A DNA stretch of 22,561 bases from a virus, in the IMG/VR virus record IMGVR_UViG_3300037300_000345, positions 1 to 22,561 of that record, one strand, 5' to 3'. A program made the position numbers and the translations under genes. The notes beneath the pieces were generated by a model, which was given only the letters and a program-made list of their open reading frames with translations, was not told the origin of the DNA and ran no database searches. Shown piece after piece: positions 4,575-22,561 of this stretch. Each line of letters starts with the position of its first letter. Position 1 is the first letter of the stretch.

Positions 4575-4889
4575 ATGAACGCCTTCGCCGCCGCCATGGA
4601 CCGGATCTATGCCAACCCGTCCATGGCGGCGGCCGCTGTCTGGATTTCCGCCAACACCTCAGAGGAACGACCAATCCGCGTCATCCGCCGCGCCCCTGAC
4701 CGGATCACCGAATTCGGCGCTGGGCGGTTTGTCAGCGATACCATGATGGTGGACGTCCGCGTCGCAGACCTGCCCGATCCCCGCCCCGGCGATCTGATCG
4801 TGATCGGGACCGACAGCTTCACCATACAGGGTGAGCCAGTGCGCGACCGCGAACGCCTGATCTGGTCGCTGGACCTGAGGCCAACATGA
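4575..4889 (+). CDS. Head-tail joining protein, lambda FII-like
   Basis: A 104-residue protein directly after the capsid gene, in the place of lambda gpFII (117 residues, PF05354). FII binds the sealed neck and receives the tail. Visible features are an N-terminal amphipathic helix (residues 1-20), a beta-rich middle and the segment DPRPGDLIVIGTDSFTIQGEPVRD (about 67-90), the type of short beta-barrel core seen in the family. The stop overlaps the next start by 4 bases (ATGA at 4886), so translation is probably coupled. The Shine-Dalgarno before ATG 4575 is weak. The assignment rests on position, size and general sequence character. Confidence 0.65.
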   Translation: MNAFAAAMDRIYANPSMAAAAVWISANTSEERPIRVIRRAPDRITEFGAGRFVSDTMMVDVRVADLPDPRPGDLIVIGTDSFTIQGEPVRDRERLIWSLDLRPT

Positions 4890-5515
4890 GGCTCAGGATC
4901 GCGTTCGATCCGGACATCGCCGCCCTGATGCAGGCCGAAATCGCGGCTGGCGAAAAGGCAGTATCCGCCGCCATGCGCGAGGCGGGCACCTCCCTGAAAT
5001 CTGCCTGGCGCGGCCAAATCACCGGCGCGGGGCTTGGCACCCGACTGGGCAACTCCATCCGCCTCGCCAGTTTCCCCAAATCCGGCGACAGCCTGAACGC
5101 GGCAGCGCTGGTCTGGTCGAACGCCCCGGTCATCATCGGCGCGCATGACACCGGCCCGCTGATACGGTCCAAGGACGGGTTTTGGCTGGCTATCCCGACG
5201 CCCGCTGCAGGGAAGAGCAGCAAAGGCGGTCGCATAACGCCGGGCGAATGGGAACGCCGCACCGGATTGCGCTTGCGGTTCATCTATCGGCGCCGTGGGC
5301 CGAGCCTGCTGGTGGCCGAGGGGCGGCTGAATTCGAAAGGCCGCGCGGTGGCGAGCAGATCCAAGACCGGGCGCGGGTTGGCGACCGTACCAATCTTCCT
5401 GCTGGTGCCGCAGGTCAAGCTGCGCAAGCGGCTCGACCTGGCGCGGGACGCAGAGCGTGCAGTGGACGGCGTGCCGAGGTTGATTGTGGCGAATTGGGGC
5501 AGTCAAAGGCTCTGA
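4886..5515 (+). CDS. DUF6441 family phage protein, probable neck or tail-completion component
   Basis: This 209-residue protein resembles the DUF6441 proteins of alphaproteobacterial prophages, which stand between head-joining and tail-terminator genes. It starts with a charged helix (residues about 8-45, EIAAGEKAVSAAMREAGTSLK), followed by TRLGNSIRL and APVIIGAHDTGPLIRSKDGFWLAIP (about 86-110), and a strongly basic second half (FIYRRRGPSLLVAEGRLNSK, then KLRKRLDLARDAERAVDGVP). HK97 gp10 and lambda gpZ-type tail-completion proteins hold the same gene place and have a similar size, so a role at the head-tail or tail-end interface is inferred from context. No enzymatic motif is seen. It is coupled to the preceding gene by ATGA. 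Confidence 0.7.
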   Translation: MRLRIAFDPDIAALMQAEIAAGEKAVSAAMREAGTSLKSAWRGQITGAGLGTRLGNSIRLASFPKSGDSLNAAALVWSNAPVIIGAHDTGPLIRSKDGFWLAIPTPAAGKSSKGGRITPGEWERRTGLRLRFIYRRRGPSLLVAEGRLNSKGRAVASRSKTGRGLATVPIFLLVPQVKLRKRLDLARDAERAVDGVPRLIVANWGSQRL

Positions 5516-5554
5516 CTGCCGCCAGATTATTTATGAACGCTTGAGAACATGAAT

Positions 5555-6421
5555 TTAGTTTGCGCGTTCCACTGGCTGCAAACGTTCAAAATTAAACTGG
5601 ATGAACTGATCGAACAGGGCTGTTTTCTTGTACAACAAACCCTGAACATTCGCATCGCTTGCTTCGACGGTTTGCGTTTCCAGCAAACCAAGCCAAGTAA
5701 GCGGGGCCAGAAAAACGGAACGCATGTAAATGTCGAGCGTGCTCAGTCGGTGATCGAAAAACTGCTTTGGGGGAACAAAACAATACCTGGTCAGTTCTTT
5801 TGCACTGCGAGGCTTGTCTGCCGTGATCGACAGCGCCCAGAGCATAACGCCACTCTGTTCTTGCACCCAAGGATGCGCCAGTTTTGTTAGGGTGCGTGGA
5901 TTCACTTTGGAAAAAATCGCCTCGAATACACGCCGCACAAGGGCAACATCGGTCTGGTTCATAAGGATGCGAAGCCCGTTGTCACAAATGTCGATGCGAC
6001 CCTCTTCAATCTGGATCAGGTCGCATTCGAAGGCGAGTGCTTTCAAGAAGTCCAAGGGGCCGATGATACCTTCGTGGAGAGGCCGTGAAACTCCCTTGAT
6101 CAGCTCATAGTCATAATTCGGCCAATGCGTCGCCTGTAAAAGCAGTTCAAGGCTATCAGAGGTCAGGGTGGAATCAGGATCCACACAAACCCACCCCTCA
6201 GAAATAAGGGTCAGGAACACATTCAGATTTGCAAAAACATGGGATCGGCCAATTTCTGCGGCGTGTTCTGAATATTGAATTTGGATTGGGGATTCAGCCG
6301 CGTTGAACGGGATCATTTTGTAAAAGGCTTCTTGCGGCAGTTGAAGCCAGGCCGGAAACACATCGCCCAGCCAATCCGTTAGCTCAGGCGGGAGTGGCAT
6401 CGAGAGTTTGATTCGGGACAT
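5555..6421 (-). CDS. Uncharacterised cargo ('moron') protein with winged-helix-like segments
   Basis: The 288-residue product is not confidently recognised. It runs against the late genes at the head/tail border, and hand counts of three 60-base rows give 50% G+C against 65% in a neighbouring tail row, which points to separate acquisition. Visible are an N-terminal region (1-60), a segment LNVFLTLISEGW...LELLLQATHWPNYDYELIK (about 66-109), then DFLKALAFECDLIQIEEGRI and DICDNGLRIL, and near the C-terminus LDIYMRSVFLAPLTWLGLLE and LYKKTALFDQFIQF. The last two pairs look like winged-helix units (helix, then GLL or DLI, then a strand, then a 'T.LG'-like element). The arrangement recalls segments that accompany pRiA4b ORF-3-like domains; this is a weak memory-based resemblance. 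No signal peptide, membrane helix or nuclease motif is seen. Upstream on its strand are AAGG before the start and a TAATAT box about 30-35 bases before ATG, without a good -35. Confidence 0.7.
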   Translation of the reverse strand: MSRIKLSMPLPPELTDWLGDVFPAWLQLPQEAFYKMIPFNAAESPIQIQYSEHAAEIGRSHVFANLNVFLTLISEGWVCVDPDSTLTSDSLELLLQATHWPNYDYELIKGVSRPLHEGIIGPLDFLKALAFECDLIQIEEGRIDICDNGLRILMNQTDVALVRRVFEAIFSKVNPRTLTKLAHPWVQEQSGVMLWALSITADKPRSAKELTRYCFVPPKQFFDHRLSTLDIYMRSVFLAPLTWLGLLETQTVEASDANVQGLLYKKTALFDQFIQFNFERLQPVERAN

Positions 6422-6462
6422 GGCGATCTGCTTACCTTGATATGGATGGACAATATTACCCC

Positions 6463-6885
6463 ATGCCCACCACCCGCGAAACCATCCTCGCAGCCCTGCA
6501 CGCGCGGCTGCAGCCGCTTGCCGCCCTCACCTTGCGTGACGAGGTTCTCCCCGAACGCATCCCGCCTGCGGGGCTGATCATCCTGCGCGACGGCCAACCC
6601 GGTGAGCCGGAGGTCACGCTGTCGCCGCTGCGCTATCACTATGAGCACCGGGCAGAGTTGGAGGTTGTCGTCCAAGCCCCGAATGGCAGGGCCAGTACCT
6701 TCGACAACCTGATCGCCGCCATCGGCACCGCGCTTGAAGCCGACCGCACCCTCGGCGGCCTCTGCGACTGGATCGAGGCGGAAGCCCCAGCTTCGGTTGA
6801 TCTGCCGGTTGAGGGCGCAGTCACCCTGAAAGCCGCGGTGATCACCGTCGTTTTGCACTACACCACCACAGGCCCGCTGGCCTGA
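6463..6885 (+). CDS. Tail terminator / tail completion protein
   Basis: The product is 140 residues from ATG 6463, starting MPTTRETILAALHARL, the usual start of this Rhodobacterales prophage family. An upstream in-frame ATG at 6442 would add seven residues (MDGQYYP) not expected from the family and lying in moron-border DNA. Conserved parts are LPERIPPAGLIILRDGQPGE (about residues 30-49) and EVTLSPLRYHYEHRAELEVVVQ (about 51-72). It stands just before the tube gene, the place of lambda gpU/gpZ, so it probably caps the finished tube. Homologues are sometimes mislabelled 'acyl-CoA transferase', for which nothing here speaks. No good ribosome binding site precedes ATG 6463, perhaps because the inserted cargo gene ends only 41 bases before. 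Confidence 0.75.
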   Translation: MPTTRETILAALHARLQPLAALTLRDEVLPERIPPAGLIILRDGQPGEPEVTLSPLRYHYEHRAELEVVVQAPNGRASTFDNLIAAIGTALEADRTLGGLCDWIEAEAPASVDLPVEGAVTLKAAVITVVLHYTTTGPLA

Positions 6886-11588: not shown

Positions 11589-12113
11589 CTATGCCTCGCC
11601 CAGCATCGCTTTCACGTCCTTGATGCGGGCGAACAATGTCATCGGCTCAGCGGCCGTCTCGGTAAATCCAGCATCGAGATAGAATGCCTTGGCCCGGTCA
11701 TTCAGGGCGTGGACAAGGATGGCCGCAATGCCAACCTCATGGGCTGCCGCGCTGATCCGCAGCACCGCGTCGCGCAGCATTGCGCGGCCAAGACCGTTGC
11801 CCTGTTCAGACGCATCAATCGCCAGACGTCCAAGTACGATCACCGGGATCGGATCGGGCATATTCTGCTTCAGCTTACGCGGCACCAGATCATGGCTCAC
11901 CGATCCCGCCGCCAAGGCATAAAAGCCGACCACCCGCGCGCCCCGGCAAAGCACAAAGGTCCGCGATGCGCCCGACGCCTGATTGGCCTGCGCCTTACGG
12001 TTCAGCCAAGCATCGAGCGTCTCTGCGCCGGACGCGAAAACTTCGACCTGATGGGTGTCGTTAAGCGGTTCGGGTGCTGTCAGTGGCCCTTTACCCGGTG
12101 TTACTTGTCCCAT
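11589..12113 (-). CDS. GNAT acetyltransferase toxin (TacT-like)
   Basis: This 174-residue protein fits the GNAT toxins of TacAT/AtaRT-type modules, which acetylate the amino group of aminoacyl-tRNA and stop translation. Visible motifs are FASGAETLDAWLNRKAQANQ (about 26-45), VVGFYALAAGSVSH (61-74), IPVIVLGRLAIDASEQGNGLG (89-109) with the acetyl-CoA pyrophosphate loop Q104-G-N-G-L-G109, and the predicted catalytic Tyr145 in AFYLDAGF. All expected motifs are intact, so activity is plausible. The start overlaps the end of the DUF1778 gene by 13 bases, the usual antitoxin-toxin order. It is transcribed against the tail operon and its stop lies 4 bases from the DUF2460 stop. Confidence 0.9.
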   Translation of the reverse strand: MGQVTPGKGPLTAPEPLNDTHQVEVFASGAETLDAWLNRKAQANQASGASRTFVLCRGARVVGFYALAAGSVSHDLVPRKLKQNMPDPIPVIVLGRLAIDASEQGNGLGRAMLRDAVLRISAAAHEVGIAAILVHALNDRAKAFYLDAGFTETAAEPMTLFARIKDVKAMLGEA

Positions 12114-12394
12114 GGGGCGGGTGTGGCCAGCAGCTTGCGCAGGCGTTCGTTCGGCGCAGGCGGTGCGTCCAGCTGGGCCATGAAGGCTCCAAACTGATCA
12201 GCGTCCAGCCGAAACGCTGTGCGATCCAACAACGCATCCTCGGCGGCCTGCCGACTGGCCTCCATCATGAACTCCGAGCGGTTCTTGCCAAGAGCGGCCG
12301 CCGCGCGGTCGATCAGATCACGGTCACGCGGGGTGACGCGCAAATTGATCAGCGACCGGCGCTGGGGATCCTGATTGGGGGTCGCTGCGACCAT
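12101..12394 (-). CDS. DUF1778 ribbon-helix-helix antitoxin (TacA-like)
   Basis: The 97-residue product fits DUF1778 (PF08681). The N-terminal ribbon-helix-helix has the strand SLINLRV (14-20), the helix TPRDRDLIDRAAAALGKNRS (21-40) and EFMMEASRQAAEDALL. The C-terminal part (FRLDADQFGAFMAQLDAPP to residue 80, ending LLATPAPWDK) is the typical toxin-wrapping segment. The start at 12394 is chosen because AGGAG lies 8 bases upstream; a longer reading from 12424 would add ten residues without a ribosome site and extend to the edge of the operator palindrome. It should neutralise the GNAT toxin and repress its own promoter through the palindrome at 12426-12448. Confidence 0.88.
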   Translation of the reverse strand: MVAATPNQDPQRRSLINLRVTPRDRDLIDRAAAALGKNRSEFMMEASRQAAEDALLDRTAFRLDADQFGAFMAQLDAPPAPNERLRKLLATPAPWDK

Positions 12395-12425
12395 GGCCTG
12401 CACTCCTGTGATGACGAAATTCAAT

Positions 12426-21232: not shown

Positions 21233-21833
21233 AAGACGGGCCGGGCAATAGCCATGCAGGAAGAGCCAAACGCCTCGACCGTGGCGGCAAGCCCAGCCCG
21301 TTCCATAGGTTTACGATTTCAAAGAGCGGCAGGGATGCGCTGCCCTGAGATGATGACATGCAACAGCACCGTCTGTCGCGATTCGAAAAGGGCACAATTG
21401 TGCACCTTTGGCCGATTGAGAGTGGTGGTTGGCCATCTTGCCATCGACCTTCGATGTTACCGGCCATTCGCCACAGTTTGTCCCAAGGTCTGTAACGCGG
21501 GCAAACCCGACTTGTGCAGGTGCGGCTATTACTGAGGCAGCATTCACTCGCACCCGCAACGGCGAATTATCGGCGATGCAGCGGATTTCACCGAAGCGGC
21601 CATTTGACTGGGCGAATTTAGGCAAAATCTTAACCGCGCCTTCGCTGTAATCAGCCCCGATTTGCAGGTGCAAAGAGTAACTTAAACTACTCGGAAGCCT
21701 GTCCAAACATTGGGGAGTAGATCAATGGGCTGAAAATTGGCGGCACAACTTGTTAGACGTCAGTCGTATTTTCAAACGCTCGTGCCTTATGCTATGGTGA
21801 TAAAACAACTGAAGGACGCGGGAGGCGGATATC
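21233..21833. other. 601-base interval without a convincing gene; contains a 12-base perfect palindrome
   Basis: Frames open here on both strands (21254-21535 +, 21311-21706 -, 21186-21467 -) overlap one another, lack ribosome sites and give proteins without recognisable folds, so none is accepted. The 131-codon minus-strand frame is the best of them. GCACAATTGTGC (21392-21403) is a perfect 12-base palindrome. The sequence does not look like phage late genes and may be a host intergenic or dispersed element. Toward its end are GGGAGG and a TATGCT box before the AraC-type gene. No tRNA or obvious att repeat is seen. Confidence 0.5.
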
Positions 21834-22493
21834 ATGTTGGAGAACGCCTTACTATTGGACTCGAATGGGAAACCGATTCGGCATGAGGGGCTCACTCAGT
21901 CAACCGACTGGGACGAAGTTCAAGAGTTTTGCCGTGCCACATACATGCCGTATCGGGTGCGGCCCTTGGACCCACTATCGAGCCCAAAGTCCACTATGCT
22001 GTCGGCTAAAGCTGGACGGGTTATGGCATCACGATTCTCCTACGGAACCGGAATTTATCTGGATAAATTCGACCCTGATGCAGGTAATATTCTCTTCCTG
22101 AACACCCTGTGCGGCAAGGTCAATCATATGTTCGAACATGAACCAACGTCGACTGGAGCAGGCGAGAGTTTTGTTGTTGATTGTCCTCGCACGGATTACT
22201 GGCTAGAAGGCGATCCAAATCATATGCAATTCAACCTGACGATACCTCATCATGTGATGGAGGAAACTGCGGAAAAGTGGTTCGGCTTTATTCCTGACAA
22301 TGCACTCTGGACGCGAAGGGTGAAATTTGGCGGGCCGAATTCGCGCTGGATGGCGCTTCTCGAATATATGTCCCGCACCTTAAGTGCTGACTTGCCCCTT
22401 ATGAAGAACGGCACCATGAGCCGCCATCTTGAGGAAATGGTTTGTCTTGAGCTGTTGCAAGAATGGGCTGGGGAATGTCCCGAAGAATGTTGA
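21834..22493 (+). CDS. AraC-type regulator sensor domain lacking the HTH domain
   Basis: This 219-residue protein is preceded by GGAGG 8 bases before ATG. It resembles the AraC_binding_2 (PF14525) sensor domain: GRVMASRFSYGTGIYLDKF (about 61-79), ILFLNTLCGKVNHMFEHEP (about 85-103), GAGESFVVDCPRTDYWLEG (about 108-126), FNLTIPHHVMEETAEKWFG (about 132-150), then helices and RHLEEMVCLELLQEWAG. Full members are about 300-330 residues with a C-terminal AraC HTH of ~100 residues; here the frame ends at TGA 22491 directly after the sensor domain, and no HTH coding is seen in the last 68 bases. One row counted gives 45% G+C, unlike the phage genes. It may be a truncated host gene at the prophage edge, or a stand-alone sensor or dominant-negative form. 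Confidence 0.6.
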   Translation: MLENALLLDSNGKPIRHEGLTQSTDWDEVQEFCRATYMPYRVRPLDPLSSPKSTMLSAKAGRVMASRFSYGTGIYLDKFDPDAGNILFLNTLCGKVNHMFEHEPTSTGAGESFVVDCPRTDYWLEGDPNHMQFNLTIPHHVMEETAEKWFGFIPDNALWTRRVKFGGPNSRWMALLEYMSRTLSADLPLMKNGTMSRHLEEMVCLELLQEWAGECPEEC

Positions 22494-22520
22494 AACTTTA
22501 ATTTAGGGTGGCGTTGCTTC

Positions 22521-22541
22521 CCCTGAGCCGTAGGCTCTGGG
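22521..22541 (+). terminator. Hairpin after the AraC-type gene, possible terminator
   Basis: CCCTGAGCC (22521-22529) pairs with GGCTCTGGG (22533-22541) with 8 of 9 pairs (one T-T mismatch) around a 3-base loop. It is followed by TGTTTAATC, only a weak T-run. It starts 28 bases after the stop of the AraC-type gene. Confidence 0.4.
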
Positions 22542-22561
22542 TGTTTAATCGCAAAAGGAAG

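Follow-up and report, generated by a model that had tools for sequence, protein, structure and literature searches.

The locus analysed here raises the question of why one reversed gene of low G+C content stands exactly where the head genes of a phage give way to its tail genes, and what its product might do there. The window, by which we mean the whole stretch of 22,561 bases of an IMG/VR virus record, encodes in this order a portal, a head protease, a decoration protein, a major head protein, a head closure protein (Phage_attach), and a DUF6441 protein, followed by the reversed gene, here called ORF288, and then by the tail terminator, the tail tube, a chaperone-like gene, the tape measure, and distal tail genes.

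A Reversed Cassette at the Head/Tail Border

ORF288 occupies positions 5555–6421 of the minus strand, starts with ATG, and encodes 288 amino acids with two predicted winged helices; its length, its reverse orientation, and its place between head and tail modules were exactly as claimed in the original prediction. It is enclosed by the head-tail gene DUF6441 (4886–5515, plus strand; PF20039, 5.3e-45; phrog_6367, 1.5e-83) on its left and by the tail terminator (6463–6885, plus strand; phrog_4204, 3.3e-43) on its right, the longest ORF of the latter beginning at 6442 and its conserved start, an ATG kept across slots, being at 6463. These two genes, whose junction corresponds to a head/tail border like that between Z and U of lambda, are thus the walls of a slot located at 5516–6462. 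The G+C content of ORF288 is 50.3% versus 63.7% for the remaining window, with a value of 49.9% for positions 5516–6441; the low content that had been claimed was therefore found, and only the 65% assigned to the surroundings was slightly high.

A comparably low G+C content was detected in the window only at its right end (~21.3–22.5 kb). Positions 21300–22561 include an ORF (21834–22493) without Pfam match and no recognised phage gene. This combination of deviating composition and lack of recognised phage genes suggests a prophage/host edge, and the right ~1.2 kb of the window is probably host DNA beyond it.

ORF288 is organised as a reversed cassette made of a start region, the ORF, and a 3′ hairpin. 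The hairpin (5495–5524), located where the 3′ ends of ORF288 and DUF6441 converge, spans the stop codon of the latter and is terminator-like, without a T-run (−19 kcal/mol and z −4.2 for the minus strand). It is kept in close relatives, among which one compensatory pair varies between A-U, G-U, and G-C. At the other end, by-eye comparison across relatives delimited a divergent start region of 41 bp (6422–6462, minus strand), which separates ORF288 from the ATG conserved in the tail terminator and contains a Shine-Dalgarno-like AAGG for ORF288 and a candidate −10 element picked by eye (TAATAT, 6453–6458; TAATAT or TACTAT in the close group). A promoter consensus scan of this region produced only chance-level matches.

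A second reversed cargo cassette was observed at 11589–12424 (minus strand), between two distal tail genes, encoding a TacA-type antitoxin and a GNAT protein (TacAT-like). This cassette is 92–93% identical in Antarctobacter (L012), and the corresponding junction is closed (−3 bp) in two other loci (L003 and L009) and shows a 314-bp gap in a third one (L002).

One Slot with Different Cargo in Related Phages

A survey anchored on DUF6441 recovered at least 80 related viral contigs, 71 of them with both flanks. In the 71 listed contigs, the junction was filled without exception by inserts of 427 to 3212 bp (median 1109), while inserts larger than 300 bp at the other eight junctions were found in 1/43, 0/50, 0/54, 1/68, 1/78, 5/65, 2/53, and 7/44 of the listed contigs. 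In all 71 cases, the slot was poorer in G+C than the DUF6441 side; homology between the contigs is lost within the final codons of DUF6441 and regained from the start ATG of the tail terminator onwards. Only one of these slots holds ORF288 (L086, the same contig as L006), the other 70 being occupied by other cargo. The slot proteins of at least 100 amino acids formed 71 clusters among the matches listed, some of them antisense artefacts of the mechanical choice of ORFs; the longest ORF of the slot was on the minus strand in 39 contigs and on the plus strand in 32. As a separate observation, the secondary inserts above 300 bp at the tail terminator/tube (5/65) and chaperone/tape measure (7/44) junctions, detected in loci L024–L103, possibly correspond to additional cargo sites.

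An empty version of the site was found in the five cultured Rhodobacter capsulatus phages examined (RcKemmy, RcKvothe, RcHotPocket, RcOceanus, and RcMeacham), in which DUF6441 and the tail terminator overlap by 4 bases (ATGA). The same ATGA overlap was present in two phage records from cyanobacterial hosts; in these and the five cultured phages, the tail terminators are 49–62% identical to that of the window over the aligned part. Both genes abut in one faecal record. A tblastn search of cultured phages detected no ORF288 homologue. PMC8601537 lists the lifestyle of the RcC phages as not determined. The overlap in the cultured phages indicates that the insert splits a gene pair that overlaps elsewhere. 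It is also worth recording that the slot is filled in all 71 listed loci, although the cultured phages show an empty site; a filled slot could conceivably be needed, for example, for starting the transcription of the tail genes.

Domain scanning of 48 slot proteins revealed a heterogeneous collection. The slot of L090 (4785–6888) encodes a prokaryotic viperin (PADLOC pVip, 1.6e-84) adjoining a coiled-coil protein with a match to NYN-type RNases. Other defence or toxin-like cargo included a RiboL-PSP HEPN protein (HEPN_RiboL-PSP, L059), Abi_C (L050), and HipA with its HTH partner (HipBA, L092), in addition to ParDE (L099), PIN_10, HNH_5 (L088), PDC-S31 (L089), and DUF1828/PDC-M24B (L062). Non-defence cargo was also present, consisting of a UbiE-like methyltransferase, QueC, a polysaccharide lyase, GNAT, an HWE histidine kinase, an HxlR regulator, and secreted proteins. 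Overall, defence, toxin–antitoxin, or nuclease domains were recognisable in around one quarter to one third of the slots, a by-eye estimate made with no control set.

ORF288 thus shows the traits of a moron, namely insertion between conserved genes, absence in relatives, and deviating base composition, and the slot shows those of a prophage cargo or defence hotspot, with fixed flanks and diverse, partly antiviral cargo. We consider it nearly certain that lambda-like phages and prophages of Rhodobacteraceae have a slot dedicated to cargo at this junction, and that ORF288 is what it holds at present in the window. Since the passenger differs from one related phage to the next, antiviral genes being among those found, the slot, and probably ORF288 with it, would provide the host with extra traits, such as resistance.

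Distribution and Selection of ORF288

Copies of ORF288 were found in 14 viral contigs and in the genomes of Antarctobacter heliothermus DSM 11445 and Phaeovulum veldkampii DSM 11550. All the phage copies with neighbours on their contig were reversed and located in the same slot, where the cargo changes from phage to phage, as the original prediction proposed should be checked, and never as conserved structural genes. The identities of the copies fall into one group of 94–100% and another of 53–60%, the copy of A. heliothermus (L012) being 94% identical.

Within the close group, the dN/dS of ORF288 was 0.11–0.14. Among full-length copies, dS was 0.19–0.23 versus 0.47–1.34 for DUF6441, the tail terminator, the tube, the chaperone, and the tape measure, a gap that codon-usage bias in the lower-G+C ORF288 could exaggerate; such a low dS compared to that of the flanks implies that the cargo was swapped after the flanks diverged. 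In two contigs (L007, 2227–2499; L008, 5727–6005), a truncated second copy of the tail terminator lies beside ORF288, which is the scar of cargo exchange by flanking recombination. Frequent inactivation in relatives was not what we found, as an internal stop was detected in only one (L008) of the 13 other full-length copies from phage contigs or prophages, the reading frames being intact in the others, down to 53% identity. In addition, a transposase-like gene, of IS5 type by eye, adjoins ORF288 in L013. These sequence comparisons show that ORF288 is under purifying selection and that its exchange between phages outpaces the divergence of the structural genes on either side. The view of this gene as a moron at the head/tail border has in this way been borne out by its foreign composition, the variable and partly antiviral cargo of the slot in relatives, the empty site in cultured phages, and purifying selection.

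Predicted Structure of the Product

Searches with ORF288 in Pfam, PHROGs, NCBIfam, PADLOC, and PDB sequences gave no family match, and no PADLOC profile matched it at E ≤ 1. An AlphaFold2 model built with 14 relatives (pLDDT 86.4, pTM 0.88) contains an N-terminal, mostly helical part, a winged helix at residues ~105–155, and a second one at ~187–276, each predicted unit consisting of helices followed by a beta-hairpin wing, in agreement with the two winged-helix-like units proposed at the outset. The model of a remote homologue from Acetobacteraceae (~27% identical) repeats the order of the elements. With Foldseek, two models were compared to PDB and one to BFVD, and nothing was retrieved at E ≤ 0.001; generic winged helices, MarR and PadR regulators among them, were prominent among the weak top matches, together with spurious long alignments.

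The invariant columns of the alignment consist mainly of W, P, L, F, and G and include no cluster of polar residues, consistent with the previous claim that the protein lacks a known catalytic motif. As the invariant residues are mainly hydrophobic, tryptophan, proline, or glycine, an enzyme is unlikely, and the product is probably a non-enzymatic protein of two predicted winged helices. The phage clade is acidic (pI 4.8–5.6, compared to 5.4–9.7 in remote members), and thus DNA binding should not be assumed.

A Wider Family in Alphaproteobacteria

Full-length remote homologues (21–27% identical) are encoded as stand-alone genes in Methylocystis, Acetobacteraceae, Asaia, and Hyphomicrobiales MAGs or plasmids, and some of the cellular relatives are found alone in chromosomes. 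In addition, a short form of ~245 amino acids, covering residues ~53–280, was identified. Matches were found in 28 of the 296 genomes of the Antarctobacter family, nearly all of them to the short form, Antarctobacter itself having both long and short forms, and in 9 of the 299 Pseudomonadota genomes, again mostly to the short form. When the short form was used as query, 228 plasmid records matched, 140 of them conjugative. The short form was repeatedly convergent with an ISNCY transposase (L165, L166, L169, L171, L172, and L174), and this short winged-helix homologue may be an IS passenger gene. At several Rhodobacteraceae loci, it adjoins an S24/HTH repressor.

PADLOC profiles matched 9 out of 10 neighbours of the family, which were picked by eye, including PD-Lambda-4_A (2.6e-126), type III restriction (1e-107), type IIG (5.6e-69), a SIR2-annotated candidate (PDC-S25, 4e-178), and SoFic (6e-103); as these neighbours were hand-picked and hence biased, the association with defence is suggestive only. 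PD-Lambda-4_A was present in 3 of 28 carrier genomes and in none of 20 non-carriers, within ~6 kb of the family in two genomes and 225 bp from a family member in one. A conserved multi-gene system was looked for around the cellular homologues, and none was found. Separately, the possibility that the short family is PD-Lambda-4_B was rejected, with no match in 15 genomes. Within what was searched, the remote homologues, carried by plasmids and chromosomes of Alphaproteobacteria, appear to make up a family that has not been described.

Possible Functions of ORF288

The other occupants of the slot and the chromosomal neighbours of the remote homologues are the reasons for considering a role in defence. 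According to this reading, ORF288, being reversed and outside late control, would have a leftward promoter of its own that drives its transcription in the lysogen; its product would bind to DNA or else to a protein of phage or host origin, and this binding would stop competing phages at some step of their development, in such a way that the lysogen would be protected and the prophage retained. Upon induction, the late operon would read through ORF288. By analogy with the moron Tab and with known prophage defence hotspots, both compared below, ORF288 could be a non-enzymatic winged-helix factor protecting the lysogen from other phages, a reading that we hold with somewhat less than even confidence. 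It has against it that ORF288 itself has no PADLOC match, that the promoter scan revealed no clear promoter, and that most slots lack a recognisable defence, toxin–antitoxin, or nuclease domain, and the acidic phage clade speaks against simple DNA binding. The broader proposal that it belongs to an undescribed stand-alone family of tandem winged-helix anti-phage proteins, spread among the phages of Alphaproteobacteria, their conjugative plasmids, and their insertion sequences, and housed here in an unreported slot, is rather doubtful.

Winged helices are commonest in transcription regulators, and the weak structural matches to MarR and PadR, the S24/HTH repressors next to the remote short family, and the HxlR regulator, histidine kinase, and methyltransferase of other slots would also fit a lysogenic-conversion regulator, that is, a winged-helix transcription factor altering the expression of the host or of a resident element to a benefit other than phage resistance. 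This is a real, if minority, possibility, since the phage clade is acidic, no regulator family was matched significantly, and many of the slot companions are antiviral or toxin–antitoxin genes. The frequency of remote relatives on conjugative plasmids (140 of the 228 records) and next to convergent ISNCY transposases could instead point to a factor for the maintenance of mobile elements, through transposition, conjugation, or stability, picked up by phages as a passenger; we regard this as unlikely, given that neither a transposase nor a relaxase accompanies the phage copies, which invariably sit in one phage slot, and that several cellular relatives are alone in chromosomes. That ORF288 is a decaying passenger without selected function, as the internal stop in L008 and the IS adjoining the gene in L013 could be taken to mean, is very unlikely in view of its dN/dS, a strong argument against decay, and of the frames kept intact in the other full-length copies. 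Finally, its position at the head/tail border would suit a gene for the structure or assembly of the head-tail joint, an explanation made highly improbable by the reversed strand, by the homologues outside phages, by its replacement with unrelated genes in nearly all relatives, and by its absence from the cultured ones.

Comparison with Known Systems

Morons of the HK97/HK022 type were reportedly described by Juhala et al. in 2000 as promoter–ORF–terminator cassettes of deviating base composition between late genes. Those belong to another phage group, and what is found here differs in being one slot with very high turnover and in having only a candidate promoter. Tandem winged-helix DNA-recognition modules, such as those of Nt.BspD6I and the recognition domain of BpuJI, resemble ORF288 in having several winged helices in ~280 amino acids; the Foldseek TM is nevertheless weak (0.27–0.30, with no significant E-value), and ORF288 has no nuclease domain or sequence similarity to them. 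The resemblance to the plasmid pRiA4b ORF-3 family (PF07929) put forward in the original prediction was not sustained, as ORF288 had no Pfam match at E ≤ 10 and no sampled PF07929 locus of Pseudomonadota encodes the ORF288 family as well.

The tail assembly blocker Tab of Pseudomonas phage JBD26 is a minus-strand moron of the late operon that has its own promoter and blocks phage assembly (PMC10884400). Tab and ORF288 are alike in lying on the minus strand inside the late structural operon and in having no family matches. Tab is a transcription unit of its own, expressed from the prophage, whereas for ORF288 expression in the lysogen is inferred; Tab also differs in its location between terminase genes, its 83 amino acids, and its partner anti-Tab, shows no sequence relation to ORF288, and has an activity that for ORF288 is a proposal. 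The antiviral hotspots of P2/P4 and K139-like prophages (PMC9122126) share with the slot a fixed locus and an ever-changing cargo rich in antiviral systems. However, those of Vibrionaceae and Bacillus (PMC9122126) are near the repressor or the integrase, and the slot described here splits two overlapping head-tail genes in phages of Rhodobacteraceae. Our literature search, outside whose reach many subscription papers lie, found no report of this slot. Prophage cargo hotspots are thus a known kind of locus, and this slot and protein family appear to be undescribed in what was searched.

Two easily recognised flanks, DUF6441 and the tail terminator, therefore enclose a gene that changes with almost every phage of the group, and part of this cargo corresponds to known or suspected immunity. 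ORF288 itself represents a widespread, unnamed protein family outside all the libraries searched. A survey of the slot across the Rhodobacterales, an abundant group of marine bacteria, would provide a list of candidate genes for defence and lysogenic conversion.
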